From assembly GCF_004364155.1 (NCBI RefSeq), contig NZ_SOAZ01000008.1, positions 1 through 64,000 of the forward strand: a stretch of 64,000 nt of DNA. The letters run 5' to 3'. The DNA is from Fonticella tunisiensis. Its GTDB lineage: Bacteria > Bacillota > Clostridia > Clostridiales > Caloramatoraceae. The notes under the pieces are model-generated. The model saw only the letters and a program-made list of their open reading frames with translations. It ran no database searches and was not told the origin of the DNA. Positions 7,790-63,960 of this stretch are shown in pieces (the first letter of the stretch is position 1; every line of letters begins with the position of its first letter). A program made the translations under genes and the position numbers.

Positions 7790-10402
7790 TTATTTATTAT
7801 TTTCTTCAGTTTCCTTTGAAATTCCTTCGAAAGCGTTTATATACATCTGCTTGATTTCGCTTATTAACGGATATCTTGGGTTGGCACCTGTGCACTGGTC
7901 GTCGAAGGCCTGTTCGCACATTTCATCAAGGGTTGCGTAGAATTTCTCTCTTGAAACACCAGCTTCACTTATCGTTTTTGGCATGTTAACCTGGTTCTTT
8001 AAGTCGTCGATTGCCTTTATAAGGAGTTCAATCTTTTCATCTTCGGTATTTCCGCCAAGGTTCAGGTAGTCAGCAATCCTTGCATATCTGAACTTGGCGT
8101 TTGGATATTTATACTGTGGGAATGCAGTTTGCTTTCTTGGGTTATCAACTGCATTAAATCTTATTACTTCGTTAATTAGAAGGCCGTTGGCAACTCCGTG
8201 TGGTACATGATGCATTGCTCCAAGCTTGTGGGCCATTGAGTGGCATACGCCGAGGAATGCATTTGCAAAGGCCATACCAGCCATAGTTGCAGCGTGGGCC
8301 ATCTTTTCCCTTGCTTTGATGTTGTTTGGACCATCATTATATGCCTGTGGTAGATATTTGAATATAAGTCTTATCGCTTCAAGGGCAAGTCCGTTAGTAT
8401 ACTCTGATGCAAGTACCGAAACATAGGCTTCTATTGCATGAGTTAGGGCGTCTATACCAGATGCTGCTGTAAGTCCCTTTGGCATATTGAGCATAAGTTC
8501 TGCATCTACTATTGCCATATCAGGAGTTAACTCATAGTCTGCAAGAGGATATTTAATTCCCGTCTTTTCATCGGTTATAACAGCAAATGGAGTAACCTCT
8601 GAACCTGTTCCGGAAGAAGTTGGGATTGAAACCATCATAGCCTTTTCGCCCATCTTTGGGAACTGGTAAACTCTCTTTCTAATATCCATAAATCTCATTG
8701 CAAGGTCTTCAAACCTTACTTCCGGATGCTCATAAAGTACCCACATAATCTTTGCAGCATCCATAGGTGAGCCTCCACCAACTGCAATTATTACATCCGG
8801 ATTGAGGCTTTTCATTTGTGCTGCACCCTTTCTTGCAGTTGCAAGTGTTGGGTCTGGTTCAACGTCAAAGAACACGCTATATTCAATTCCTATTTCATCA
8901 AGGGTCTTTGTAACTGTATCGATAAATCCTAAATTATACAGAACTTTGTCAGTAACGATGAATGCCCTCTTCTTGCCCATATCCTTTAATTCCTTTAATG
9001 CTACAGGCAGGCAGCCGTATTTGAAGTATATCTTTTCAGGAACTCTGAACCAAAGCATATTTTCTCTCCTTTCAGCAACACTCTTGATGTTTAAAAGATG
9101 CTTAACTCCAACGTTTTCAGATACAGAGTTTCCACCCCATGTACCACATCCGAGTGTTAGCGAAGGAGCAAGCCTGAAGTTATAGATATCTCCTATTGCA
9201 CCTTGGGACGAAGGCATATTGATTATTGTTCTTCCTGTCTTCATAGTCGCACCAAATTTTTCAATTCTATCCCTTGATTTTACCTGGTCGGTATATAGAA
9301 CTGATGTATGCCCAAATCCGCCAAGTTCCACAAGCCTTGCAGCTTTCTGAAGTGCCTCATCGAAGGTTTTAGCCTTATACATAGCGAGCACAGGTGAAAG
9401 TTTTTCGTGTGAGAATGGTTCATCGAGTTCAACGGATTCAACTTCTCCGATTAATACCTTTGCTGTTTCAGGAACTTTAACTCCAGCCATTTCAGCTATT
9501 TTGTGGGCAGGCTGTCCAACTATATTTGCATTTATTGAACCATTAACAAGTATTATCTTTCTAACCTTGTCGATTTCCTCTCCCTTTAGGAAGTATGCTC
9601 CTCTTTCCTCAAACTCACGCTTAACTTCGTCATATATTTGTTCCATTACAATTACTGACTGTTCTGAAGCACATATAACTCCGTTGTCAAATGTCTTTGA
9701 AAGAAGTATGGAGCTTACTGCCATTTTAATATGTGCTGTTTCATCTATTATTGCAGGCGTATTTCCAGCACCTACTCCTATTGCGGGTTTTCCTGAGGAA
9801 TAAGCAGCTCTTACCATTCCGGGGCCGCCTGTGGCAAGTATCATATCAGCTTCCTTCATAACGATCTGTGAAAGTTCAACCGTTGGTTCATCAATCCATC
9901 CTATTATTCCCTCAGGGGCACCGGCCTTAACTGCAGCATCAAGTACGATTTTAGCTGCTGCTATAGTTGATTTTTTAGCCCTTGGATGGGGTGAGAAAAT
10001 CACACCGTTTCTTGTTTTTAAAGCGATTAATGCTTTAAATATTGCAGTGGATGTCGGGTTGGTAGTTGGTACTATTGCAGCGATAACTCCTATAGGTTCT
10101 GCAACCCTCATTATGCCGAAGGATTCATCTCTGTCAATAACTCCGCAGGTCTTTTCATCCTTATATTTATTGTATATATATTCTGAGGCAAAGTGGTTTT
10201 TAATAACTTTGTCTTCTACAATTCCCATTCCTGTTTCTTCAACAGCCATCTTTGCAAGCTTAATTCTTGCATTGTTAGCAGCCATAGCAGCCTGTCTAAA
10301 TATTTCATCTACCTGTTCCTGGGTGTAGGAGGCGAATATTTTTTGGGCTTTTCTAACCTCCTCAAGCTTTAATCTTAGTTCTTCTGCATTTGTTACTTTC
10401 AT
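7790..10402 (-). CDS. adhE: Bifunctional acetaldehyde-CoA / alcohol dehydrogenase
   Basis: AdhE reduces acetyl-CoA to acetaldehyde and then ethanol, oxidising two NADH. The 870-residue length is canonical. Residues 1 to about 440 are the CoA-acylating aldehyde dehydrogenase, with the catalytic cysteine in FDNGVICASEQS. The rest is the iron-dependent alcohol dehydrogenase, with the nucleotide motif AVGGGSPMDAAK and metal ligands in HSMAHKLGAMHHVPHG. AdhE normally assembles into spirosome filaments in the cytoplasm. A Rex-type operator about 120 bases upstream suggests induction when NADH is high. It is a single-gene unit ending at a terminator. Confidence 0.97.
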   Translation of the reverse strand: MKVTNAEELRLKLEEVRKAQKIFASYTQEQVDEIFRQAAMAANNARIKLAKMAVEETGMGIVEDKVIKNHFASEYIYNKYKDEKTCGVIDRDESFGIMRVAEPIGVIAAIVPTTNPTSTAIFKALIALKTRNGVIFSPHPRAKKSTIAAAKIVLDAAVKAGAPEGIIGWIDEPTVELSQIVMKEADMILATGGPGMVRAAYSSGKPAIGVGAGNTPAIIDETAHIKMAVSSILLSKTFDNGVICASEQSVIVMEQIYDEVKREFEERGAYFLKGEEIDKVRKIILVNGSINANIVGQPAHKIAEMAGVKVPETAKVLIGEVESVELDEPFSHEKLSPVLAMYKAKTFDEALQKAARLVELGGFGHTSVLYTDQVKSRDRIEKFGATMKTGRTIINMPSSQGAIGDIYNFRLAPSLTLGCGTWGGNSVSENVGVKHLLNIKSVAERRENMLWFRVPEKIYFKYGCLPVALKELKDMGKKRAFIVTDKVLYNLGFIDTVTKTLDEIGIEYSVFFDVEPDPTLATARKGAAQMKSLNPDVIIAVGGGSPMDAAKIMWVLYEHPEVRFEDLAMRFMDIRKRVYQFPKMGEKAMMVSIPTSSGTGSEVTPFAVITDEKTGIKYPLADYELTPDMAIVDAELMLNMPKGLTAASGIDALTHAIEAYVSVLASEYTNGLALEAIRLIFKYLPQAYNDGPNNIKAREKMAHAATMAGMAFANAFLGVCHSMAHKLGAMHHVPHGVANGLLINEVIRFNAVDNPRKQTAFPQYKYPNAKFRYARIADYLNLGGNTEDEKIELLIKAIDDLKNQVNMPKTISEAGVSREKFYATLDEMCEQAFDDQCTGANPRYPLISEIKQMYINAFEGISKETEENNK

Positions 10403-51776: not shown

Positions 51777-51810
51777 AACGTCCTCCTGTAATTTCAGGAG
51801 GACGTTTTAC
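51773..51810. terminator. Bidirectional terminator between cinA and pulA
   Basis: GTAAAACGTCCTCCTG pairs perfectly with CAGGAGGACGTTTTAC across a 6-base loop. It serves both convergent genes and overlaps their ends. Confidence 0.85.
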
Positions 51811-53948
51811 AGTGTAAATAAAAGGTTCATGCTTATTCCTTCAACTTCAATCATGCCTTCTGTTATGGCTTTAATTGACCTATTGCCGGCCTGGTTTTTA
51901 TTGGCGGCAAGATGCCAAATTCCATCTGGAGCAGGTATTGATACAGAATTCATGTTTCCATTATAAATGACAAATATTTTTTTCCATGTGTCACCTGCAT
52001 TATCGCCATTTATCATGAAAGCCACAACATTAGGTGGTACATTATCGATAAAAGATACATTCTCTCTAATAGCTTCTGGAGAAGACAGTCTGAAGGCAGG
52101 ATGATTTTTTCTGATTTCTATAAGCCCTTTATAATATTCAAAAACATCCAGAAATTCCAGCTTTCTATTCCAGTCCATCCAATTGATATTGTCAGGAGAG
52201 TTGTAGCTGTTTTCTACACCGTATTTAGTCCTGCAAAACTCTGCTCCTGAATGTATGAAGGGGATTCCCTGGCTTGTTAATACTATGGCATTTGACAGTT
52301 TCTGCATTGCCTTTTTGTCTTCCAGGCTGAACTCTCCTGCACATTTTTCAAGCTTATCCCAAAGGGTGTTGTTATCGTGGGCAGATACATAATTAATCGA
52401 CTGAACAGGCGAAGTGTATAATCCTTTTATATCATCGCTATAAAAAATGCAGCCAACAACCGATACTTTTATTCTGCTTTCTAGGCCAGGCCTTCCACTT
52501 ACAAATCCTTTTTCTGAGGCATTAAATACTCCTCCTCTTATGGAATCCCTTATGCTGTCGTTAAAAAATCCTATTCCGGGAAGCCTGTATGAATTGTAGT
52601 GGGTTGCTTTATCCTCATCCTGTAAGCCTGTATTTAAATTCCAGCCTTCCCCGTAAAGCATTATTGGCCTTTCAAGGGTATTCAATTTATCCCTAATTTT
52701 ATTCATAGTTTCTATATCGTGAAGCCCCATTAAATCAAACCTGAACCCATCTATATGATACTCCTGTGCCCAATATAATACAGAATCAACTATGAACTTT
52801 TGCATCATCTTGTGTTCAGATGCTGTATCGTTACCGCATCCGCTTCCGTTAAACAGCTCATTTTTTTCATTAAAACGAAAATAATATCCAGGAAAAATTT
52901 TTTCAAAGTTATTATTAATGCTGTCATACATATGGTTATATACAACGTCCATATTTACACATATTCCCTCCTTATGGAGGAGATAAATAAGCTGTTTTAA
53001 TTCTTTGATTCTGCATATCGGATCATAGGGGTTAGTGGAGTAGCTTCCCTCAGGCACATTGCAGTTCTGCGGATCATATCCCCAATTATATTTTAAATGA
53101 GGATTCACTTCATCAATGCTCTTATAGCTGAAATCAAATATGGGCATAAATTGTACATGTGTAACTCCAAGTTCCTTTATATGGCTTAAAGCTGTGGAAA
53201 CGCCTCCGCTTGAAGCAGTGTTTTTCTCAGTAAGGCCTAGATATTTGCCCTTGTTGAGTACGCCGCTGTCAGGGTGCATAGTCATATCCCTTATACTCGC
53301 CTCATATATGATTGCATCGGTATAATTTTTAAAATATGGAGATCTATCCTGCTGCCAGCCGTCAGGGTTGGTTTCCAGCAAATCTACTATTGCACCCCTT
53401 AGTCCATTTATTCCACAAGACTTCGAATATGGATCCACTGCTTCGTTTATTCTACCGTAAACTTTCACTTCATAGGTATAGAACATGTTTTTTAAATCTC
53501 CATTTACACTTATGCTCCATAAACCTGAGGTTTCCTTTAAAGGTATTCTTGTGGGTTCCTCAGGTATTGATGGATCGCCATTTTTGTAAAGTAGAAGCGT
53601 CACAGATGAGGCCGCAGGGGACCAAACTTTAAAAACAGTGCGCTCCCTGCTGTATAAAGCACCAAGTTTGCCATCATAATAATATCTATCATTGAAGGTT
53701 TTGCTTTTATACAATGGGTTATAGGATGCTTTAACACAGTTTCCATTCAGGCATATGAAACATTCATCTTTGATGTTGATTTCATCCTTTAAAGTAAAAT
53801 CCATATAGTTACCATAAATAGTAAAACTATCTACCTTTAAGTAATTACTTCCATTCATTACTTTAATCTCTGACAAATCTACTCCTAAATGATCAAAATG
53901 GACATTTATATGCTTAAAATCTAACACTGAAGCCCATAAAATCCTCAT
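51807..53948 (-). CDS. pulA: Type I pullulanase (GH13), intracellular
   Basis: It hydrolyses alpha-1,6 branches of glycogen or limit dextrins. The 713-residue protein has an N-terminal beta domain, a CBM48 around residues 90-180, and a GH13 barrel. The type I signature YNWGYDP is at 287-293, the nucleophile at Asp405 (GFRFDLMG), the acid/base at Glu434 (LYGEGW), and the third acid lies in SAHDNNTLWD. There is no signal peptide, so it should act on internal glycogen. No glg genes adjoin. GGTGG precedes the ATG. Confidence 0.93.
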   Translation of the reverse strand: MRILWASVLDFKHINVHFDHLGVDLSEIKVMNGSNYLKVDSFTIYGNYMDFTLKDEINIKDECFICLNGNCVKASYNPLYKSKTFNDRYYYDGKLGALYSRERTVFKVWSPAASSVTLLLYKNGDPSIPEEPTRIPLKETSGLWSISVNGDLKNMFYTYEVKVYGRINEAVDPYSKSCGINGLRGAIVDLLETNPDGWQQDRSPYFKNYTDAIIYEASIRDMTMHPDSGVLNKGKYLGLTEKNTASSGGVSTALSHIKELGVTHVQFMPIFDFSYKSIDEVNPHLKYNWGYDPQNCNVPEGSYSTNPYDPICRIKELKQLIYLLHKEGICVNMDVVYNHMYDSINNNFEKIFPGYYFRFNEKNELFNGSGCGNDTASEHKMMQKFIVDSVLYWAQEYHIDGFRFDLMGLHDIETMNKIRDKLNTLERPIMLYGEGWNLNTGLQDEDKATHYNSYRLPGIGFFNDSIRDSIRGGVFNASEKGFVSGRPGLESRIKVSVVGCIFYSDDIKGLYTSPVQSINYVSAHDNNTLWDKLEKCAGEFSLEDKKAMQKLSNAIVLTSQGIPFIHSGAEFCRTKYGVENSYNSPDNINWMDWNRKLEFLDVFEYYKGLIEIRKNHPAFRLSSPEAIRENVSFIDNVPPNVVAFMINGDNAGDTWKKIFVIYNGNMNSVSIPAPDGIWHLAANKNQAGNRSIKAITEGMIEVEGISMNLLFTL

Positions 53949-54171: not shown

Positions 54172-55071
54172 GTGAAGGAAAAACTTAAGAATTTCTGCAA
54201 AAGTATAGGAATTGAGTATGTTGGCATTGCATCGCCTGGTCCATACTTGGAACTTCAAAAGATATTAGAGGACAGGATCAACAAGGGGTTTTATACCGGC
54301 TTTGAGGAGAAGGAGCTTAAAAAGAGGATATACCCTGAAATTACAATGCCGGATGTTAAATCTATAATTGTATGTTTATTCCCGTATTATGTAGGGTATT
54401 CCAACGATACCAATATATCGAATTATACATACGCCAGGGACTACCATTTAATTGTAAAGGAAAAGTTGATAAATATCGGAGAATTTCTTAGAGAAAACAT
54501 AGAAGGTTTTAACTATATGGCTTTTGTTGATACAGGTCCACTTGTAGATAGATATCTAGCGTACCTTGCCGGGCTTGGCTTTTGGGGAATAAACACACAT
54601 ATAATAAATGATAAATATGGTTCCTACGTATTTATTGGTTATTTAATGGTAGACTACGAATTTGAGTTTGATACTCCTCATGACAGGACCTGCATACAAT
54701 GCGGGAGTTGTATTAGAAATTGTCCTGGAGGAGCAATCCTCGGTGGGTTTGAGATTGATCCGAGAAGATGTGTATCCTATCTAACCCAGAAGAAGGGGGA
54801 GCTCTCAGAGGAGGAAAAGGGGTGTATAAGAAACAATGGACATTCTGTATTTGGATGTGACATATGCCAGAAGGTTTGTCCTCATAACATGAATAAGGAA
54901 CATACAAACATGGAAGAGTTTAAAAAGGATTTAATTTATAAGCTCAACTATGATGAATTAAATTCTATTTCTAATAAAGAGTTTAAAAGAAGATATGGAG
55001 ACAGGGCATTTAGCTGGAGAGGCAGAACTATTATTGTAAGGAATTTTGAATATTTAATGGATGATAAATAG
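54172..55071 (+). CDS. queG: Epoxyqueuosine reductase QueG-like
   Basis: QueG is a cobalamin and Fe-S enzyme that reduces epoxyqueuosine to queuosine in tRNA. The 299-residue protein has the N-terminal cobalamin-binding region (YARDYHLIVKEKL, FVDTGPLVDRYLAYLAGLGFWG) and two ferredoxin-type motifs (CIQCGSCIRNCPGGAIL and CDICQKVCPHN). It lacks the C-terminal HEAT extension of longer QueG forms, like other clostridial versions. The start is GTG 54172 after GGGAGAG. It is unlinked to queT-queF at 17.2-18.4 kb but serves the same modification. Confidence 0.88.
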   Translation: MKEKLKNFCKSIGIEYVGIASPGPYLELQKILEDRINKGFYTGFEEKELKKRIYPEITMPDVKSIIVCLFPYYVGYSNDTNISNYTYARDYHLIVKEKLINIGEFLRENIEGFNYMAFVDTGPLVDRYLAYLAGLGFWGINTHIINDKYGSYVFIGYLMVDYEFEFDTPHDRTCIQCGSCIRNCPGGAILGGFEIDPRRCVSYLTQKKGELSEEEKGCIRNNGHSVFGCDICQKVCPHNMNKEHTNMEEFKKDLIYKLNYDELNSISNKEFKRRYGDRAFSWRGRTIIVRNFEYLMDDK

Positions 55072-56010: not shown

Positions 56011-56040
56011 GCTGCTTGGCGTAGATTGAGGGTGATATTG

Positions 56041-57552
56041 TTGAGTACTAATCTAAATTTATCATGTGTTATGGTTATTTTTGGTGGAACAGGGGACTTA
56101 ACACACAGAAAACTTATACCTGCACTTTATAACTTAAAGTATGAAGGCATACTTCCGGATAATTTTGCGGTGATATCCGTTGGAAGAAGAGAAAAAACAA
56201 CTGAAACATATCGAAACGAAATATATGAATCGGTGAAATCCTTTTCCAGATTTAAAATGGATGATGAAAAATGGAAGGAGCTTTCTGAAAGAATATACTA
56301 CCACAGACAGGATTTTTCAGATGATGATGGTTACATCAGGCTTAATGATTTTTTAAATGAATTGGATAAGAAGTATAATACAAATGGAAACAGAGTTTAT
56401 TATCTTGCCGTTGCTCCGGAAAGTTTTGAAACAATTGTAGGAAAGCTTCATAAACACTGCATGGCTGACAATAGCAATTCATGGAGAAGGGTAGTTATAG
56501 AAAAGCCCTTTGGAAGGGATTTAAAATCAGCACAGTTTCTAAATCAAAAGATAAATGAAGCATTTGCAGAAAAGGATATCTATAGAATCGATCACTATCT
56601 TGGTAAAGAGATGCTTCAAAACATTATGGTTATTAGATTTGCCAATGCATTCTTTGAGCCTATATGGAATAACAGGTTTATAGATAATATTCAGATATCA
56701 TCAAGTGAGATGGTAGGGGTTGAAAACAGAGGAGGATATTATGAAAAAGCCGGAGCATTAAGGGATATGGTTCAAAATCATATGCTTCAGCTTTTAACGC
56801 TAACAGCTATGGAACCTCCTGTTAACCTTGAAACTGAGTCCATAAGGGATGAAAAGGTAAAGGTTTTGAGGTCCCTTCAAGTCCTAACTCCAGAACTTGT
56901 AAAGAAAAACGTTGTAAGGGGGCAATATGGTCCGGGAAAAATTGAAGGAAGAGGGGTTCCTGGATACAGAGAAGAGGAGAGAGTAAGTCCGGATTCTAAA
57001 ACAGAAACTTTTATAGCCCTTAAAACCTATGTCGAGAATTTTAGATGGAGCGGTGTTCCATTTTATATTAGAACGGGTAAGAGAATGCCGGCTAAATCCA
57101 CTGAGATAGTCATTCAATTTAAGCCACTGCCGGAAATACTTTACTTTAAAGAATATGGCATAATGGAGCCTAATCTGCTGGTTATTAAAGTTCAGCCCCA
57201 GGAGGGGATATTTTTACAGTTTAATGCAAAACGTCCTGGTACTTCAAACATAATTGTACCTGTACAGATGGATTTCTGCCAAAACTGCCACGCAGGAAGC
57301 AACTCACCAGAGGCATATGAAAGGCTTCTATATGATGTGATGAGGGGAGATTCCACTCTATTTACTAGATGGGACGAAGTGGAGCATTCCTGGAGGTTTG
57401 TTGATAATATTGCACAGGTATGGAATGACGAGAATACCGAGATTTCAAAGTATGAATCAGGAAAATGGGGACCTAAGGAGGCAGATGAGCTTTTAGCCAG
57501 AGATAATAGGAAATGGTGGAACATTGGGGAAGTTAGCTTTAAAAATATTTAA
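56041..57552 (+). CDS. zwf: Glucose-6-phosphate 1-dehydrogenase
   Basis: It oxidises glucose-6-phosphate to 6-phosphogluconolactone with NADP+. The 503-residue product has the coenzyme loop FGGTGDLTHRKLIPALYNL, the substrate/catalytic RIDHYLGKEM, EKPFGRDLKSA and RTGKRMPAKSTEIVIQF. I choose TTG 56041 (MSTNLNLSCV), placed properly behind GAGGGTG; an earlier TTG adds five residues. Both starts are non-ATG. The expected partner gnd, directly upstream, is broken, so any downstream step must be encoded elsewhere. Confidence 0.95.
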   Translation: MSTNLNLSCVMVIFGGTGDLTHRKLIPALYNLKYEGILPDNFAVISVGRREKTTETYRNEIYESVKSFSRFKMDDEKWKELSERIYYHRQDFSDDDGYIRLNDFLNELDKKYNTNGNRVYYLAVAPESFETIVGKLHKHCMADNSNSWRRVVIEKPFGRDLKSAQFLNQKINEAFAEKDIYRIDHYLGKEMLQNIMVIRFANAFFEPIWNNRFIDNIQISSSEMVGVENRGGYYEKAGALRDMVQNHMLQLLTLTAMEPPVNLETESIRDEKVKVLRSLQVLTPELVKKNVVRGQYGPGKIEGRGVPGYREEERVSPDSKTETFIALKTYVENFRWSGVPFYIRTGKRMPAKSTEIVIQFKPLPEILYFKEYGIMEPNLLVIKVQPQEGIFLQFNAKRPGTSNIIVPVQMDFCQNCHAGSNSPEAYERLLYDVMRGDSTLFTRWDEVEHSWRFVDNIAQVWNDENTEISKYESGKWGPKEADELLARDNRKWWNIGEVSFKNI

Positions 57553-57556
57553 TTTA

Positions 57557-57592
57557 AAATATGGTAACTTTTATAAGGTTACCATATTTTTT
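57557..57592 (+). terminator. Terminator after zwf
   Basis: AAATATGGTAAC pairs with GTTACCATATTT across a 10-base loop, followed by TTTATAA. Confidence 0.8.
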
Positions 57593-57659: not shown

Positions 57660-58904
57660 TCATAAAATACCAGCCAGCGTTTCATAGGCAAGCTTAATAC
57701 GTTCAAATAGAGCATCAGGAATATCTAATCTTTCAAGTTCAGTTCCCTTTGATGTCAATCTATTTTTTGCCCCCATGAACACTCCACCGAGAAAAGTAGC
57801 ACTGTAGTGCCACTCTCCCCGTATTGTTGCCAACAGGGATAAGCTTCCGGATGAGAGTGCGGGTGCAATATAGGGTTTGTGCCCGGCTTTCCTTATTTCG
57901 AGGTTGGCTTTTTTCGTTTTTTCGGTTAGATAAATAGAAAGCTCATGGTTGTAGTTTCTTATGCTGTCTGCTACTATTAATCCATCTCCGTGGGGCCCAA
58001 ACACTCTGCCTTCATGCAGGAAGTGCTCCAACTCTGGTTCCTTCTGTGCAAAATATGCAGCCCTTGCATTCATAACTCCAAGCCCATAACCTCTTATTTG
58101 ATCAGGTGCAAGCCCCATAAAATCTAACTTACCCGATTTATCGGTGTTGCTGGATAGAAACGCCGACTTGCACAGGAGATCAACTGGATCGGACACAACC
58201 GCGAATATGCCCTTAAATGCATAATTTCTAGCCTTTTTTGCGTAGTAATTTATTATTTTAGAATTTCCTTTAAATTGTGCCATTCTAACATCCATGCCTT
58301 CCTCACCTATAGGGGGAACACCACGGGATACGCAAAATATAAACATGTCACAGTTAAAAATATCGTCTTCATCAATTTTGATCACAGAGGGCATGGGCTC
58401 ACTATGAAATGCTGGCAGTATCTGGCTGACTTCCCTTTCCCAGCGGTTTACTTTGTTGATGTCAATATCATATATACCTATACTTGAAATGCAGTCCCCT
58501 CCAAGAAGTCTGAGACCAGTTATAAGCATTCCACCTACATCTCCGAGGCCTGCAATGTTAACTCTCCATTTATCGGGAAAGGATGTTTTAGTAACATCCT
58601 CCCAGCCAGGATAGTTTTTGTTTAATGCTATTACTTTTCTGAAATTGATTCTTTCTATAATCCATGAAGGAACGTTAACCGCAGATTCCGGTGCAGCTTT
58701 TAAAAGCTCTACCCCCTCTGACTCAATATAAAGTAGGGATGGGTCAGTGATTACAAAACTCCTTCGTGATGTTAATGCATCTAAATCCATTAGAGCATAT
58801 ATATATCCTTCTGAGATTCGGGCTTCATCTTCCGATATTCTATGGAAATCATCGTATTTTTTATTTGAGATAAAAACGTGTTTATTAAAACTATAGTAAT
58901 ACAT
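57660..58904 (-). CDS. Lactate/malate dehydrogenase-like enzyme with extra N-terminal domain
   Basis: The 414-residue protein carries an LDH/MDH-fold core from about residue 114. NIAGLGDVGGMLITGLRLLGG (116-136) is the Rossmann loop, with IYDID as the NAD-selecting acid. SDPVD at 238-242 replaces NPVD, GLGVMNARAAYFA follows, and FGPHGDG (303-309) holds the catalytic histidine. Ordinary LDH/MDH is about 310-330 residues. The first 110 residues here are extra and not recognised. GGAGG overlaps the stop of the giant gene upstream, so translation is coupled. NAD use is likely; the 2-hydroxyacid substrate is unknown. Confidence 0.75.
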   Translation of the reverse strand: MYYYSFNKHVFISNKKYDDFHRISEDEARISEGYIYALMDLDALTSRRSFVITDPSLLYIESEGVELLKAAPESAVNVPSWIIERINFRKVIALNKNYPGWEDVTKTSFPDKWRVNIAGLGDVGGMLITGLRLLGGDCISSIGIYDIDINKVNRWEREVSQILPAFHSEPMPSVIKIDEDDIFNCDMFIFCVSRGVPPIGEEGMDVRMAQFKGNSKIINYYAKKARNYAFKGIFAVVSDPVDLLCKSAFLSSNTDKSGKLDFMGLAPDQIRGYGLGVMNARAAYFAQKEPELEHFLHEGRVFGPHGDGLIVADSIRNYNHELSIYLTEKTKKANLEIRKAGHKPYIAPALSSGSLSLLATIRGEWHYSATFLGGVFMGAKNRLTSKGTELERLDIPDALFERIKLAYETLAGIL

Positions 58905-58913
58905 AACTGCCTC

Positions 58914-61900
58914 CTAATCCTTATTTAACAGATATTCAATTCGGCTTAAAAGCTCAAGATCGTTTTTAAGATAATGTGAAGCATTAAGGTTTAAATCATA
59001 ATTCATGTTGTAACCATGATCAGGACATCTTGGAGACATAAATACCTGGCCTAACAGCCCAAGAGTAAGGCTCCTTTCTTGGATAAATTGATATTCGCTT
59101 TCCAAGGCAGCCATAATATCCAGGGCGTTTTCTATACAAACCTTTGAAAGGTTGAATATTGAACTTGTTGAAGTTCCCTTTATGAAGGTTGGTGATGCAT
59201 ATGGCAGTATGAGGTTTATCGATGGAATAAGATTCCTACGGGGATAATCCCCCTGCCAGACGGTATCCCCTCCCATAAAGGGGTATAGAAGGCTTTCATT
59301 GAACCAAACTTTGAGTTTGGGGATATAGTAGGCGCTATCAACGCTTCTATTTTGAATATCCATAAGTTCTTTTCCCATTCCAGAGAGTATTCCCACTATT
59401 ATTTTTTGGACATTTATACCTTCTTTGTTGAGAAGAGGGTCAAGTGCTCTTATTCTATAGCCTTTATGAAGAATATCATCAACTAAAATAACAGGCCTGT
59501 CAAATGCTTTAAGCATCCTAATCTGATTTTCAAGGCTCAGATAGTTTGGAAAAGGTCCTATGGTATAGCTTTTCAAATCCCTCGAGAAATATTTTTCTGT
59601 GTGAAGAGATTTAGTTATAGTGTTTGGAACTATATTTCTTTTAAGTATGTTTCCAAAGGGAACGCACATTGAGTTGCCAAAGCTTCTGGGACAAAGTGGA
59701 GTTGTAGGGACCCCGTTCTCTCTACATATCTTTTTAATAATGTTTTCATACATCATATTTCTATTAAAGGAAAGCACCAGATTACCGGGGTAAAGCTTTG
59801 TAAGTGCCTCTTGAAGCCTTTTTCTCGATGTTTTAATAACTTTATTTATATTATTATTGCTTCGAAAGGGCTCCTTTATAATTGTTTTTATGTCAAGATT
59901 CAGGGTACAGGGTGAGCTCATATTTACTACATAGAAGGGTGAATCATTGGAATTATATGGTAGTTTTATAAACCCCTGCAGTCTCAGTACATCTTCAATT
60001 TGTCTGGAAGAAAAGTCGAGTATTATGCTTTTATATACTGCGTAATCATAATCTCTGGAAAGGCAGAATGCTAGAGTTTCGGTAAGGAGCATCTGCTCAA
60101 GGTTTTTTATTTTTGTGTTTTTATTTATATACATGCCGCCTATAAGAACTATTCTACCTGCAGCATTTTTTCTTATGTATTCACAAACTAATACATTTTG
60201 AAGCTCGCGATAAAGCTCGCTTATCCTTATCCAATGTATTAGTGAGAAGGCTACTATAGAATTGTTCTCATTTACTGAACGGAGCGCAACAATTCGAGCT
60301 GATGGCTTTTTGGAGAAATTCTTTAATTTTTCATATAAATCATACGGCCTGTTTTCAAGCAGGGAACAGATTTCATCAATGATGCCTTCATTAATGTTAT
60401 TAATGACTTCCACGTCGACAGAAACGGTTTGAATAGGAGATTTATACTGAGGCTCGTGCTGATAATAGCCATTTTCATACATGTACCTCTGTACAAGTGG
60501 ATCTATTAAACTTGAAATATCCATATTCTTATCAATATAATCCCTTATTCGAGTTGAACTTATATCCTCATACTGGGGCGCAAGGGAGAGATAAATAATC
60601 TCTCCATCTATCAGTTTTAATACATCATCAAGCCTGTGTTTCTTACCAGCAGGCTTCATATTTCGCTTAAATATTATATGTGAAAAGGAATGTATAGAAT
60701 TTTCACTTTTGCTCTTCTTGTAGGCAGATGCGTTTAAAAGAACGTCGCTTCCTACCACTATATAAATTTCAGAACAGGGAAATGCATTTCTTAAAGTCGA
60801 CAAATTATCGTTGTTTGAAATATTAATCTGAACATCCTCTGGAAAAAGGTAAACTTCAAGTTCATCTGCAATGGACATACTAATTATATTTCTTCTAATC
60901 ATATGGGGCCTTGTTTGCTTTGACCAGGAAAACTCATCAACTGCAAGGAAAACTTCAAATCCAAGATCTTTTATGGCCTTTACTATTTCCTTATGGCTTA
61001 AGGAAAAGGGATCAAAGGTTCCAGGAAAAAAGGCAACCTTGTCAGGATGTTGTAACTCGATTTTTCCCCGGATGCATGTATATTCTGAAATAAATCTGTA
61101 TATATGGTTAAGAGAAGCAGCTTTAGTAAGAAAGAGCAGCTCTTCATCAGAATCGTCAACTATGAGGGTAAGGAGCTTTTTAGAGATCAATTTGAATATG
61201 TTGTATTTTTGTTCTAAACCCAACCATCTGGAACAGAATATATCCTTGCCAATTACTCTGTATGCCATCTGTTTAACCTGAACATTGTAGTTTACAAGAC
61301 CGTTTAAAAGTATCCCCAGCATTTTAATCAGCCTGTTTTTAAAATTCTTTTCATCTTCATTAAACATATATCTATATTTTGGGTAGTTAGCTATTACTAT
61401 TCCGATTGTCTTTAAAATAAGGGATTTAACTCTGGGTTCAGACTGCTTTATTTTACCGATTAAATCATCTGTTACCTCATCTAATTCAATGGGCTTTAAG
61501 AAAAGCAGGATCTGTCCAAGGGAATAAGGAATAAATTCAGCAAATCTAAGACCTTCTATTTCTAGGGCTCTTAGAAGTTCAATTGCAACGTCGTTTCTCT
61601 GCTCTGGTGAAAGATGCGGAATAATCCTGACAAGGGCGTCACCGGCAAAGTTTCTAACGCTTTCAACTGCACTAACCTTTAGAAGATTGCAGTAGTGTAG
61701 TGCAGTATAAAATGCATTTTCCTTTGGATGCTTCAAGGAATGGTCAAGCAAAAGCTCAACCTGTATCTTTTTAATTATCCAATCCGTTGCTGTTTTTAGG
61801 TTGCTCAAGTATATATCAGGTATTTTCTTTAAATCACGTTTACAGAAATCTGAAAATCTTTTTTTTATGGCATCGTCCAAATCCAACTGATTTGCGATTT

Positions 61901-63812
61901 TTTCCTTAAGAAAATTCTCAGCAGGTATTTTGGAATAGTTAACTTTATGTGTAAGCTTTGTCTTGAGGTTTATAATAAAAATAAAATCGCTGCTCAGTCT
62001 ATACAATAAACTTCTAGAAACATCAAGTGCAGCAATTCTTAAAATGGAATTTTTAGAATCAAGCATATCCAGTATATAATTGAAAATTACGAGTGAATCC
62101 TTGTTTTCTGAAAACGGTATATATTTTGCAGCATAAAGTAAGGTGAGTTTATTGTCATTTGTGCTGTATTTTTCTTTATCATAATATTTAAATATAACGT
62201 CGCAATAAGCGTCAATAAGATTACTTTTGGCATTATTAAATAGTGAAGAAATCATAATTGGCAGAGTGTATACTATCCATTTTCTATGCTCCAGCAAAAT
62301 CTTATGGTCAGGGAACAGGAATAACCCTAAGTATTTATTCAAAAGATCAACACTTGTAAATTTAGGAGATCCAAGTTTTGCACTTGAAGGCAGCTCTTTC
62401 CTATAATCTTCATCAAATTCAGCTATTAGAACACCGATAAGCTCAGCAGACTTTTTTCGAATATCCTCCTCAGGGTGAGTGAGTTCCTCGTATAAAAAAT
62501 TTAGTGTGATAAGCTTTTGCTTTTGAGTTAAATATGTCGAATACTCTTCAAATATTTGAAGATATTGGCGGAGATTTTTCCAGTCATTTTCACTTCTTGC
62601 AAGATCAAGGATGAAATTAAGGGATGATTCTGTTCTCAGTTTGTACATAAGTTTTATATTATTTTCTATTGAAACATATTTGAGATTTTCTACAACTTCC
62701 TGGCCGTGCATAAGTGGATAGCTAAACTTTTTCCGGATTTTTAAAGCTTCGTTGTCAACCCTATCTGAAAAATCTGTGTTAACTTCTATTCCAATATTAA
62801 TCATAAAACTTTCAAAATCTTCAAGCTTAGAATATACTCGCTTATATCTGTTAAGCTTCATGTCATCAACGTTATCGAGCTTATCAAGTATTACGTTAAA
62901 TGCGTCCTTTAAAGTGAGAAAATGCATGGTGTCCTTTCCGTTCTTGTCCTTCAGGTTTTTAACCCTGAAATCGGAATAAATGAGTATTAGGGATTCCAGA
63001 GGAAGATTTTCCAGTTCAAGATCCCAGGTTGAGTGGTTCAAAGCTATGTTTCTTATGTAGAGTATATCATGCCTTGTAAACCATAAATCAGTATAATAAT
63101 AATGAAGATAGGGTACTCGCTTTATTTCTGAACCCGTACATCCATATTTACCTATATCATGGCCTGCAGAGGCTCCGGATACTCTGCCAAGGTCTATCGG
63201 AAGGCCCAAAGACTGAAACTGTCTGGCTAAAAACATGGCAAGGTAGTGTACACCGCAAATATGATCCAGGGTGTTATATCCTAAAAGCTCCTGATTCAAT
63301 TTCATCATTTCATAAATATATTCTTCATCGAATGAGTTTAGAAATTTTAAGTATTCATCTGGATTTTCAAGGGAATTAATCTCTTCCTGGGATAGAAAAT
63401 AAAGAGGATACTTGCTCTGCCATGTTCCGTCATTTGAATGCTTTTGAATTTGGGATGCTATTTTAAGCACCTTTAAATATATTTCATATGATTGTGCATC
63501 TATTGACGTATATACTAACGTTGAAGCGTGGGGAAAGGATTTACTAAGTGCATACTGGTATACATTCATAAGCCACTCCATATTATTTTGAACAGGAGCT
63601 ATTAGGTCAATCAAGTTTTTAATTAGAATTAAAGTGGAAAAACAGCTAAAATCCTTTTTTTCGACCATCGACCTAATATGGCTTTTTACCTCTTCACTGT
63701 ATAGGAATTCTTTCAGCATTTCCTTGCTGAGCAGATGTCTATTTATAAATTCATTGTTCAGTAGTTCATATAACAAATTGTCATAGAGTTCTTTTTCAAG
63801 CTGGCCATTCAT
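58914..63812 (-). CDS. Giant multidomain protein: HD / helical repeats / NMNAT-like / GNAT-like / phosphoribosyltransferase-like
   Basis: The 1632-residue protein combines several enzyme-like domains. Residues about 175-300 are an HD phosphohydrolase (H184 or H189, H218-D219 in AGHDIGK, D281). Residues about 380-915 look like helical HEAT/ARM-type repeats. Residues 925-1117 are a NadD-type nucleotidyltransferase (AFFPGTFDPFSLSH at 927-940, ISSTRIRDYI at 1084-1093). About 1130-1300 is GNAT-like. About 1340-1510 is phosphoribosyltransferase-like, with the PRPP loop PVILVDDILHKGYR. There is no signal peptide or membrane helix. GGGGG precedes the ATG. It is co-transcribed with the LDH-like gene. 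The whole architecture suggests nucleotide or NAD-related metabolism, but no function is known to me. Confidence 0.8.
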   Translation of the reverse strand: MNGQLEKELYDNLLYELLNNEFINRHLLSKEMLKEFLYSEEVKSHIRSMVEKKDFSCFSTLILIKNLIDLIAPVQNNMEWLMNVYQYALSKSFPHASTLVYTSIDAQSYEIYLKVLKIASQIQKHSNDGTWQSKYPLYFLSQEEINSLENPDEYLKFLNSFDEEYIYEMMKLNQELLGYNTLDHICGVHYLAMFLARQFQSLGLPIDLGRVSGASAGHDIGKYGCTGSEIKRVPYLHYYYTDLWFTRHDILYIRNIALNHSTWDLELENLPLESLILIYSDFRVKNLKDKNGKDTMHFLTLKDAFNVILDKLDNVDDMKLNRYKRVYSKLEDFESFMINIGIEVNTDFSDRVDNEALKIRKKFSYPLMHGQEVVENLKYVSIENNIKLMYKLRTESSLNFILDLARSENDWKNLRQYLQIFEEYSTYLTQKQKLITLNFLYEELTHPEEDIRKKSAELIGVLIAEFDEDYRKELPSSAKLGSPKFTSVDLLNKYLGLFLFPDHKILLEHRKWIVYTLPIMISSLFNNAKSNLIDAYCDVIFKYYDKEKYSTNDNKLTLLYAAKYIPFSENKDSLVIFNYILDMLDSKNSILRIAALDVSRSLLYRLSSDFIFIINLKTKLTHKVNYSKIPAENFLKEKIANQLDLDDAIKKRFSDFCKRDLKKIPDIYLSNLKTATDWIIKKIQVELLLDHSLKHPKENAFYTALHYCNLLKVSAVESVRNFAGDALVRIIPHLSPEQRNDVAIELLRALEIEGLRFAEFIPYSLGQILLFLKPIELDEVTDDLIGKIKQSEPRVKSLILKTIGIVIANYPKYRYMFNEDEKNFKNRLIKMLGILLNGLVNYNVQVKQMAYRVIGKDIFCSRWLGLEQKYNIFKLISKKLLTLIVDDSDEELLFLTKAASLNHIYRFISEYTCIRGKIELQHPDKVAFFPGTFDPFSLSHKEIVKAIKDLGFEVFLAVDEFSWSKQTRPHMIRRNIISMSIADELEVYLFPEDVQINISNNDNLSTLRNAFPCSEIYIVVGSDVLLNASAYKKSKSENSIHSFSHIIFKRNMKPAGKKHRLDDVLKLIDGEIIYLSLAPQYEDISSTRIRDYIDKNMDISSLIDPLVQRYMYENGYYQHEPQYKSPIQTVSVDVEVINNINEGIIDEICSLLENRPYDLYEKLKNFSKKPSARIVALRSVNENNSIVAFSLIHWIRISELYRELQNVLVCEYIRKNAAGRIVLIGGMYINKNTKIKNLEQMLLTETLAFCLSRDYDYAVYKSIILDFSSRQIEDVLRLQGFIKLPYNSNDSPFYVVNMSSPCTLNLDIKTIIKEPFRSNNNINKVIKTSRKRLQEALTKLYPGNLVLSFNRNMMYENIIKKICRENGVPTTPLCPRSFGNSMCVPFGNILKRNIVPNTITKSLHTEKYFSRDLKSYTIGPFPNYLSLENQIRMLKAFDRPVILVDDILHKGYRIRALDPLLNKEGINVQKIIVGILSGMGKELMDIQNRSVDSAYYIPKLKVWFNESLLYPFMGGDTVWQGDYPRRNLIPSINLILPYASPTFIKGTSTSSIFNLSKVCIENALDIMAALESEYQFIQERSLTLGLLGQVFMSPRCPDHGYNMNYDLNLNASHYLKNDLELLSRIEYLLNKD

Positions 63813-63960
63813 TTTTATCCCCCTTAAGCTTAAATGAATATGGTAAAGATCTCTAGTATAATTATATTAATATTTTTATGATTTTTCTATTAATAAAGCT
63901 TTTATATATACTCTATATTTGAAAGTGCTTTATATAAAATATAATATAAAGTTAACAATA

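Follow-up and report, generated by a model that had tools for sequence, protein, structure and literature searches.

The stretch of DNA analysed here (the window) comprises the first 64,000 nucleotides of contig NZ_SOAZ01000008.1 of Fonticella tunisiensis (Clostridiales, Caloramatoraceae; assembly GCF_004364155.1). Near its end lie two minus-strand genes, the first encoding a protein of 1632 residues, designated the giant, and the second encoding a 414-residue protein with the fold of lactate and malate dehydrogenases (LDH and MDH), designated the dehydrogenase. The presence of this pair in the window was confirmed, and the adjacency of the two genes across genomes is far beyond chance. The cassette to which they belong usually consists of three genes, in the order giant, LDH-like protein and flavoprotein. 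We put at roughly 40% the probability that this cassette makes, edits and uses a dinucleotide resembling nicotinamide adenine dinucleotide (NAD), with the dehydrogenase-like protein as its user.

Results

Arrangement of the gene pair and its conservation

The giant gene (58914..63812, minus strand) was identified as an open reading frame (ORF) with family matches and full-length relatives in many Clostridia, and the dehydrogenase gene (57660..58904, minus strand) as an ORF with a family match and a predicted structure. The two genes are separated by 9 nt, and direct reading of the minus strand gave the junction GAT TAG GAGG CAGTT ATG. The ribosome-binding site of the dehydrogenase gene, AGGAGG (58910..58915, read from 58915 to 58910), has two bases in common with the TAG stop codon of the giant (58916-58914) and is followed by a 5-nt spacer and the ATG (58904-58902). 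The overlap of ribosome site and stop codon claimed in the original prediction, which was made from the sequence alone, was thus found on the DNA.

The conservation of the pair was assessed in samples of the window's order (225 genomes), class (391) and phylum (398). Within the order, the dehydrogenase was present in 63 genomes and the giant in 62, with both in 61, the dehydrogenase alone in 2, the giant alone in 1 and neither in 161 (Fisher p = 1.6e-51, relatedness ignored). These counts leave out dehydrogenase matches weaker than E 2e-58, which are weak LDH/MDH-family matches and two second pieces in genomes G006 and G015; for the giant, NadD hits and small additional pieces were excluded. 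In 60 of 63 cases the dehydrogenase gene immediately followed a giant, with the two sharing contig and strand. The three others were G102 (51% complete), where the gene is close to the end of a contig, G212, whose giant is on different contigs, and G097, in which neither a giant nor the third gene of the cassette was found and which is the clearest candidate for a dehydrogenase on its own. In the lone genome with only a giant, G013, that gene fills a 4.3-kb contig. Outside the order, 26 genomes of the class sample carried a giant, 25 of them together with the dehydrogenase. All 8 genomes of the phylum sample with a dehydrogenase also carried a giant; G000 and G287 were known before, and the other six agreed.

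A scan of a species-genome collection returned at least 315 relatives of the giant, and the best 80 were taken as named loci. These best 80 were mostly from Clostridia, including Alkaliphilus, Geosporobacter, Lutispora, Sedimentibacter, Fusibacter, Anaerotignum, Blautia, Oscillospiraceae and others; a few were from records labelled Spirochaetes, Atribacteria or Calditrichales, labels that may be misassigned. Adjacency was counted by tblastn, since ORF calling misses dehydrogenases under longer antisense ORFs in some loci. Five loci end too soon; among the remaining 75, the dehydrogenase was adjacent in 71, nearby in one (L120) and not adjoining in three (L135, L173 and L198). The L135 giant is a second copy, and another giant precedes the dehydrogenase in the same genome; in the L173 genome the dehydrogenase is located elsewhere, and in the L198 genome none was detected. 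Fourteen genomes in which the giant had no dehydrogenase next to it, or only a distant one, were tested, and the gene was present in 12 of them. The gap between the two genes had a median of 8 nt and was 30 nt or less in 55 of 62 loci, this list comprising 62 of the 64 loci with a dehydrogenase ORF; L120, with its intervening genes, is one of those left out, and loci such as L179, in which only tblastn revealed the dehydrogenase, are likewise absent from it.

Co-occurrence and adjacency across Clostridia, the check proposed with the original prediction, were therefore observed in both sets of genomes, and a dehydrogenase found mostly without the giant, which would have spoken against the coupling, was not the pattern seen. 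The two genes adjoin in the window's order and as far afield as other classes of the phylum, and the pair is ancient.

Domains of the giant protein

No family model names the giant as a whole. Its five parts were assigned one by one, and all are encoded on the minus strand.

An HD phosphohydrolase domain (residues ~140-345; 62778..63395) was assigned from Pfam HD matches in family members and from invariant metal-ligand positions. Pfam HD matched region 120-390 in 47 of 56 giants (best 7e-8), the window's own member not being among those matched, and the metal-binding residues H184, H218, D219 and D281 (H...HD...D) were invariant in 111 of 111 giants. The HEAT-like helical region that follows (residues ~380-915; 61068..62675) was recognised from weak Pfam HEAT matches: over residues 380-918, PF02985 was found at E <= 0.1 in 9 of 10 giants tested, and above Pfam's own cut-off in only two.

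Residues 923-1120 (60453..61046) form a nucleotidyltransferase domain of the NadD/NMNAT fold, with the motifs GTFDPF..SH and ISSTxIR. An AlphaFold2 model of residues 916-1632 had a predicted local distance difference test score (pLDDT) of 90.7, and comparison of the domain with NadD structure 4rpi by VIA-align gave Z 17.0 with a root-mean-square deviation (rmsd) of 2.7 over 186 aligned residues. The catalytic residues D934, H940, S1086 and R1090 were invariant in 111/111 giants. The match to the NadD model TIGR00482 was significant (7e-11), at 42.5 bits against a curated cut-off of 112.45. The NAD-synthesis-like domain of the original prediction is thus present. The residues around the base differ: Tyr1031, found in all 111 giants, aligns with a Trp of the two NadD sequences compared, the residue that stacks on the nicotinate ring, and the PPHK loop of NadD is replaced by a conserved DEFSWSK. 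The domain may therefore carry out NadD-type chemistry with a different base pocket. The giant is not the cell's own NadD, a possibility rejected on the grounds of a canonical nadD-yqeK pair on the same contig.

The next domain (residues 1129-1299; 59916..60428) has the acetyltransferase fold of the GNAT family, as judged by VIA-align of the model (residues 1129-1298 against 1wwz: Z 14.4, rmsd 2.7, 146 aligned). The last, at residues ~1310-1560 (59133..59885), resembles phosphoribosyltransferases (PRTases) and has an atypical version, VDDxLHKGYR, of the loop that binds phosphoribosyl pyrophosphate (PRPP). Pfam Pribosyltran (PF00156) gave a weak match in 33 of 56 giants (best 0.0022), with the window's giant scoring 11.6 bits, under the cut-off of 26.3. 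Alignment by hhalign to the genome's own PRTases gave a probability of 54% and E 1.3e-4 over 33 columns, covering the PRPP loop only. In this loop the acidic D1445 and G1451 were each conserved in 110 of 111 giants; the Gly is preceded by HK and followed by R at the positions of Thr in the canonical loop. The VIA-align comparison hardly covers residues beyond 1300, and the PRTase-like assignment rests on sequence.

The dehydrogenase-like protein

The predicted structure of the dehydrogenase-like protein had a pLDDT of 94.4, and its residues 110-414 adopt the LDH fold (VIA-align with 4lmr: Z 30.4, rmsd 2.6, 278 aligned). A Pfam Ldh_1_N match was obtained at 3e-7, and the score against the L-LDH model TIGR01771 was 30 bits, the cut-off being 303.55. 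An N-terminal extension (residues 1-109; 58578..58904, minus strand) is modelled confidently, lies outside the LDH match and is missing from the shortest of the relatives, which range from 315 to 459 residues (n = 109).

The NAD-binding GxGxxG motif is kept, with G121 and G124 in 108 of 109 proteins (one gap) and Gly or Ala at G119 in 108 of 109, and the acidic residue after beta-2, D146, is found in 101. The equivalents of Arg109 (R207, 108/109), Arg171 (R281, 109/109) and His195 (H305, 109/109) are likewise retained. In all 109 proteins, however, the catalytic Asp168 is replaced by Met278 (VMNAR, compared with LDTAR in 4q3n) and the active-site Asn140 by Asp239 (SDPVD, compared with SNPVD). 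In the eLife paper PMC4109310, Arg109, Asp168, Arg171 and His195 are noted to persist even in the divergent HicDH clade. Because Asp168 is retained there and lost in every protein of the present family, its loss is unusual and ancient, and the substrate is not readable from LDH or MDH. An ordinary lactate or malate dehydrogenase was rejected on the basis of the two replaced residues and the score far below the cut-off. The original description of the protein as an NAD-dependent dehydrogenase consequently held for the fold; as an activity it is not established, the catalytic Asp being replaced.

The third gene of the cassette

In relatives, the dehydrogenase gene is followed by a third gene encoding a protein of ~350 residues, with a C-terminal FMN-reductase domain (FMN_red, 1e-21) and an extra N-terminal domain of ~160 residues. 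Four cysteines (C209-x2-C212-x4-C217-x8-C226) were invariant in 43 of 43 of these proteins, and profile searches matched no PDB structure. Of the 72 loci with a dehydrogenase, 7 end too soon; the third gene was directly downstream on the same strand in 61 of the other 65 (tblastn). It was absent from that position in L145, L160 and L187, and in L177 it is inverted (8760-9821) and convergent with the dehydrogenase. It adjoins the dehydrogenase even where the latter and the giant are apart (L120/L199, L201; G912).

Pairwise Mantel correlations among the three cassette proteins at 53 loci were 0.65, 0.86 and 0.72, and 0 of 2000 permutations gave values as high. These correlations reflect shared history, not interaction.

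Twelve of 13 other genomes of the window's family that were tested carried the third gene, the exception being G013 (64% complete); G015, with a broken cassette, was left out. Because the gene is missing here and present in nearly all of these relatives, the arrangement in the window is best interpreted as derived and reduced. The two-gene operon originally described is accordingly accurate for the window and does not represent the usual cassette.

Additional giants

Four genomes (G374, G416, G521 and G980, the last containing L135) carry a second giant that lies beside a gene for an APH-like kinase and has no dehydrogenase beside it. The kinase genes are located at L208 8905-9843, L209 3017-3946, L210 10259-11182 and L135 8073-9032. 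On a tree of 83 giants, the four kinase-linked proteins required two changes even when only well-supported branches were counted, and the association with a kinase may have arisen twice. This association is in keeping with a giant acting on a small phosphorylated molecule.

Neighbouring genes

The original prediction had the pair isolated from other metabolism genes. This was not the case here, where zwf (glucose-6-phosphate dehydrogenase; 56026-57552, plus strand) is convergent directly downstream and pncB (nicotinate phosphoribosyltransferase) lies ~5.5 kb upstream of the giant, yet no neighbour other than the third gene is conserved. A 13-bp inverted repeat with a T run (57556..57590), found by eye between the dehydrogenase gene and zwf and not listed by the hairpin scan (loop limit 8), is likely a terminator shared by both. 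Upstream, a candidate sigma-70-like promoter (TAGAAA-17-TATAAT; 63861..63889, minus strand) lies 48 nt 5' of the giant start; it is a consensus match only, of a class not clearly above the shuffled background. The pncB gene (L205 5592-7079, minus strand; ~69.3-70.8 kb on contig C8, past the end of the window) is on the same strand as the giant, but genes on the opposite strand intervene. A conserved link to pncB was rejected, as the gene was in no other fetched flank. Also near the cassette in the window are genes for a type I pullulanase (51807-53948, minus strand) and a QueG-type tRNA epoxyqueuosine reductase (54172-55071, plus strand).

Elsewhere, other genes lie between the giant and the dehydrogenase in G246 and G354, and the two genes lie apart in G912 and G981. 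The intervals in L211 (9588-13236) and L120 (15763-19169) contain split glutamate-synthase modules (GATase_2, Glu_synthase with Fer4, and GXGXG), which have Pfam names in L120 only, together with a gene judged by eye to be ammonium-transporter-like. A link between glutamate synthase and the cassette was rejected, these modules being found only in G246 and G354/L120. In G912 the giant is near three TerD-like genes (by eye; L206 6382-8166), and the dehydrogenase and third gene are on another contig.

Beyond the cassette genes, no neighbour family occurred in more than 15 of the 80 named loci, and no regulator gene was among the conserved neighbours. A defence system was set aside on this lack of shared neighbours and on the PADLOC result, which gave only ShosT (0.0088) on the PRTase-like part of the giant. 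A mobile element was rejected, there being no phage match and a single 'plasmid' match to a 2.6-Mb circular record. That record, NZ_CP154629.1 (L227; 2.63 Mb), is labelled a plasmid of Acetoanaerobium noterae and carries the whole cassette; it is probably a mislabelled chromosome.

Discussion

The synthesis and editing of a NAD-like dinucleotide is proposed because one cassette brings together a NadD-type domain that looks active, a PRTase-like fold, an HD hydrolase and a protein with an NAD site. The giant would unite the steps by which a nucleotide cofactor is handled: the PRTase-like domain would bind or form a mononucleotide in which ribose 5-phosphate carries some ring compound, the NadD-like domain would add AMP from ATP to give a dinucleotide, and the HD domain would hydrolyse wrong or surplus dinucleotides. 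The GNAT domain might acylate an intermediate or the protein itself, and the HEAT-like solenoid would hold the parts. The co-translated LDH-fold protein, with its GxGxxG motif and the Asp at the end of beta-2, would bind the dinucleotide and act as a redox enzyme or sensor with chemistry unlike that of lactate or malate dehydrogenation, and the flavoprotein, where present, would pass electrons. The separate nadD-yqeK pair also counts in favour of this proposal. It accords with the dedicated cofactor or modified-nucleotide pathway, or redox sensor, originally suggested, which is still the most plausible class of function.

Several points weigh against the dinucleotide proposal. With HKGYR in place of the canonical TGxT and a weak family match, the PRTase-like domain may do no more than bind a nucleotide, and the replacement of Asp168 by Met may mean that the dehydrogenase-like protein is not a catalyst. 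Genomes G990 and G991 have a giant with no dehydrogenase detected, and the four second giants beside a kinase suggest that the giant can work without this partner. The flavoprotein is dispensable, since no third gene was found in the window's genome, which retains the other two. The gene order, the overlap, the co-occurrence, the NadD, GNAT and LDH folds, the invariant HD and nucleotidyltransferase residues and the loss of Asp168 and Asn140 were observed directly; the reactions, the order of the steps, the identity of the dinucleotide and the formation of a complex are all inferred.

A bolder form of the proposal, which we regard as doubtful, is that the product is an undescribed NAD-like cofactor. 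The giant would build it from a base and PRPP and then ATP, with HD editing and acylation, and the rewired LDH-fold oxidoreductase and Cys-rich flavoprotein would use it as a private redox currency of anaerobes.

The alternative that survives best, although it too is rather unlikely, is NAD damage control. The giant would proofread or repair damaged or mis-made NAD(P) or analogues of nicotinic acid adenine dinucleotide (NaAD), and the LDH-like protein and flavoprotein would act before or after cleavage and re-adenylation, reducing abnormal forms of NAD(P)H or oxidising them again. The nearest known precedent is the NadD-YqeK fusion of JCVI-Syn3A, where NadD-type and HD hydrolase domains on one chain were shown to proofread NaAD analogues (PMC9426524). 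The catalytic residues of both domains are invariant in the giant, which would be an extra unit in a host that also has an ordinary nadD-yqeK pair, and the restriction to anaerobes, as deduced from the named organisms, fits a special NAD problem. However, the HD domain is ~580 residues from the NadD-like domain and may not be YqeK-like, its best solved relative by profile being 1xx7 (E 0.03). The GNAT and PRTase-like domains are left unexplained, and the base pocket differs from that of NadD.

A redox or stress regulator is unlikely. Here the LDH-like protein would be a pseudo-dehydrogenase sensing the NADH/NAD ratio, to which the giant would respond with a nucleotide signal or a protein modification such as acetylation or AMPylation. 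Two replaced active-site residues beside a kept NAD site could be the look of an NAD-binding sensor, and the HEAT-like region, the GNAT domain and the recurrence of an APH-like kinase beside extra giants point in the same direction. The near-universal retention of the His195, Arg171 and Arg109 equivalents nevertheless argues for catalysis. The strict constraint on the HD and nucleotidyltransferase positions of the giant also speaks against regulation, and the conserved neighbours include no regulator gene. That the giant and dehydrogenase are functionally unrelated and have only a transcript in common is very improbable: the genes are separable (G246, G354, G912 and G981), but the dehydrogenase usually persists in the genome when it is not beside the giant, and their adjacency spans classes.

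A five-domain protein of ~1600 residues whose active sites are strictly invariant, and which has retained one partner through much of the class Clostridia and outside it, must matter to these anaerobes. A non-NAD redox cofactor or a dedicated NAD repair line, if true, would change the view of clostridial redox balance, and a dehydrogenase with an invariant Met in place of the catalytic Asp offers directly testable chemistry.

Comparison with known systems

Literature searches found no description of the cassette, and its components were compared with their nearest known counterparts. Like the mycoplasma NadD-YqeK fusion of JCVI-Syn3A, the giant has a NadD-type nucleotidyltransferase and an HD phosphohydrolase in one chain, with catalytic residues in both (PMC9426524). 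It differs in having the HD domain first, a HEAT-like region between the two and GNAT and PRTase-like domains after them, in a chain of 1632 residues, as well as in its altered base pocket (Trp to Tyr) and in a host that also has ordinary nadD and yqeK. The giant shares with bacterial NadD/NMNAT enzymes the fold and the GTFDP..H and ISSTxIR motifs, whereas its score is under the NadD cut-off and both the PPHK loop and the ring-position Trp are replaced.

Members of the L-lactate/malate dehydrogenase superfamily share with the dehydrogenase-like protein the full fold over residues 110-414, the GxGxxG motif and the three retained active-site residues. The differences are the two invariant substitutions, the 109-residue N-terminal extension and the score of 30 bits against an L-LDH cut-off of 303.55. 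The third-gene protein, with its FMN_red domain and four invariant cysteines, resembles the iron-sulfur flavoproteins of anaerobes. Their compact cluster motif, given as CX2CX2CX5-7C in PMC3164229, differs from the CX2CX4CX8C found here, and the ~160-residue N-terminal domain is additional. Taken together, the cassette combines known folds in a conserved and apparently uncharacterised architecture.

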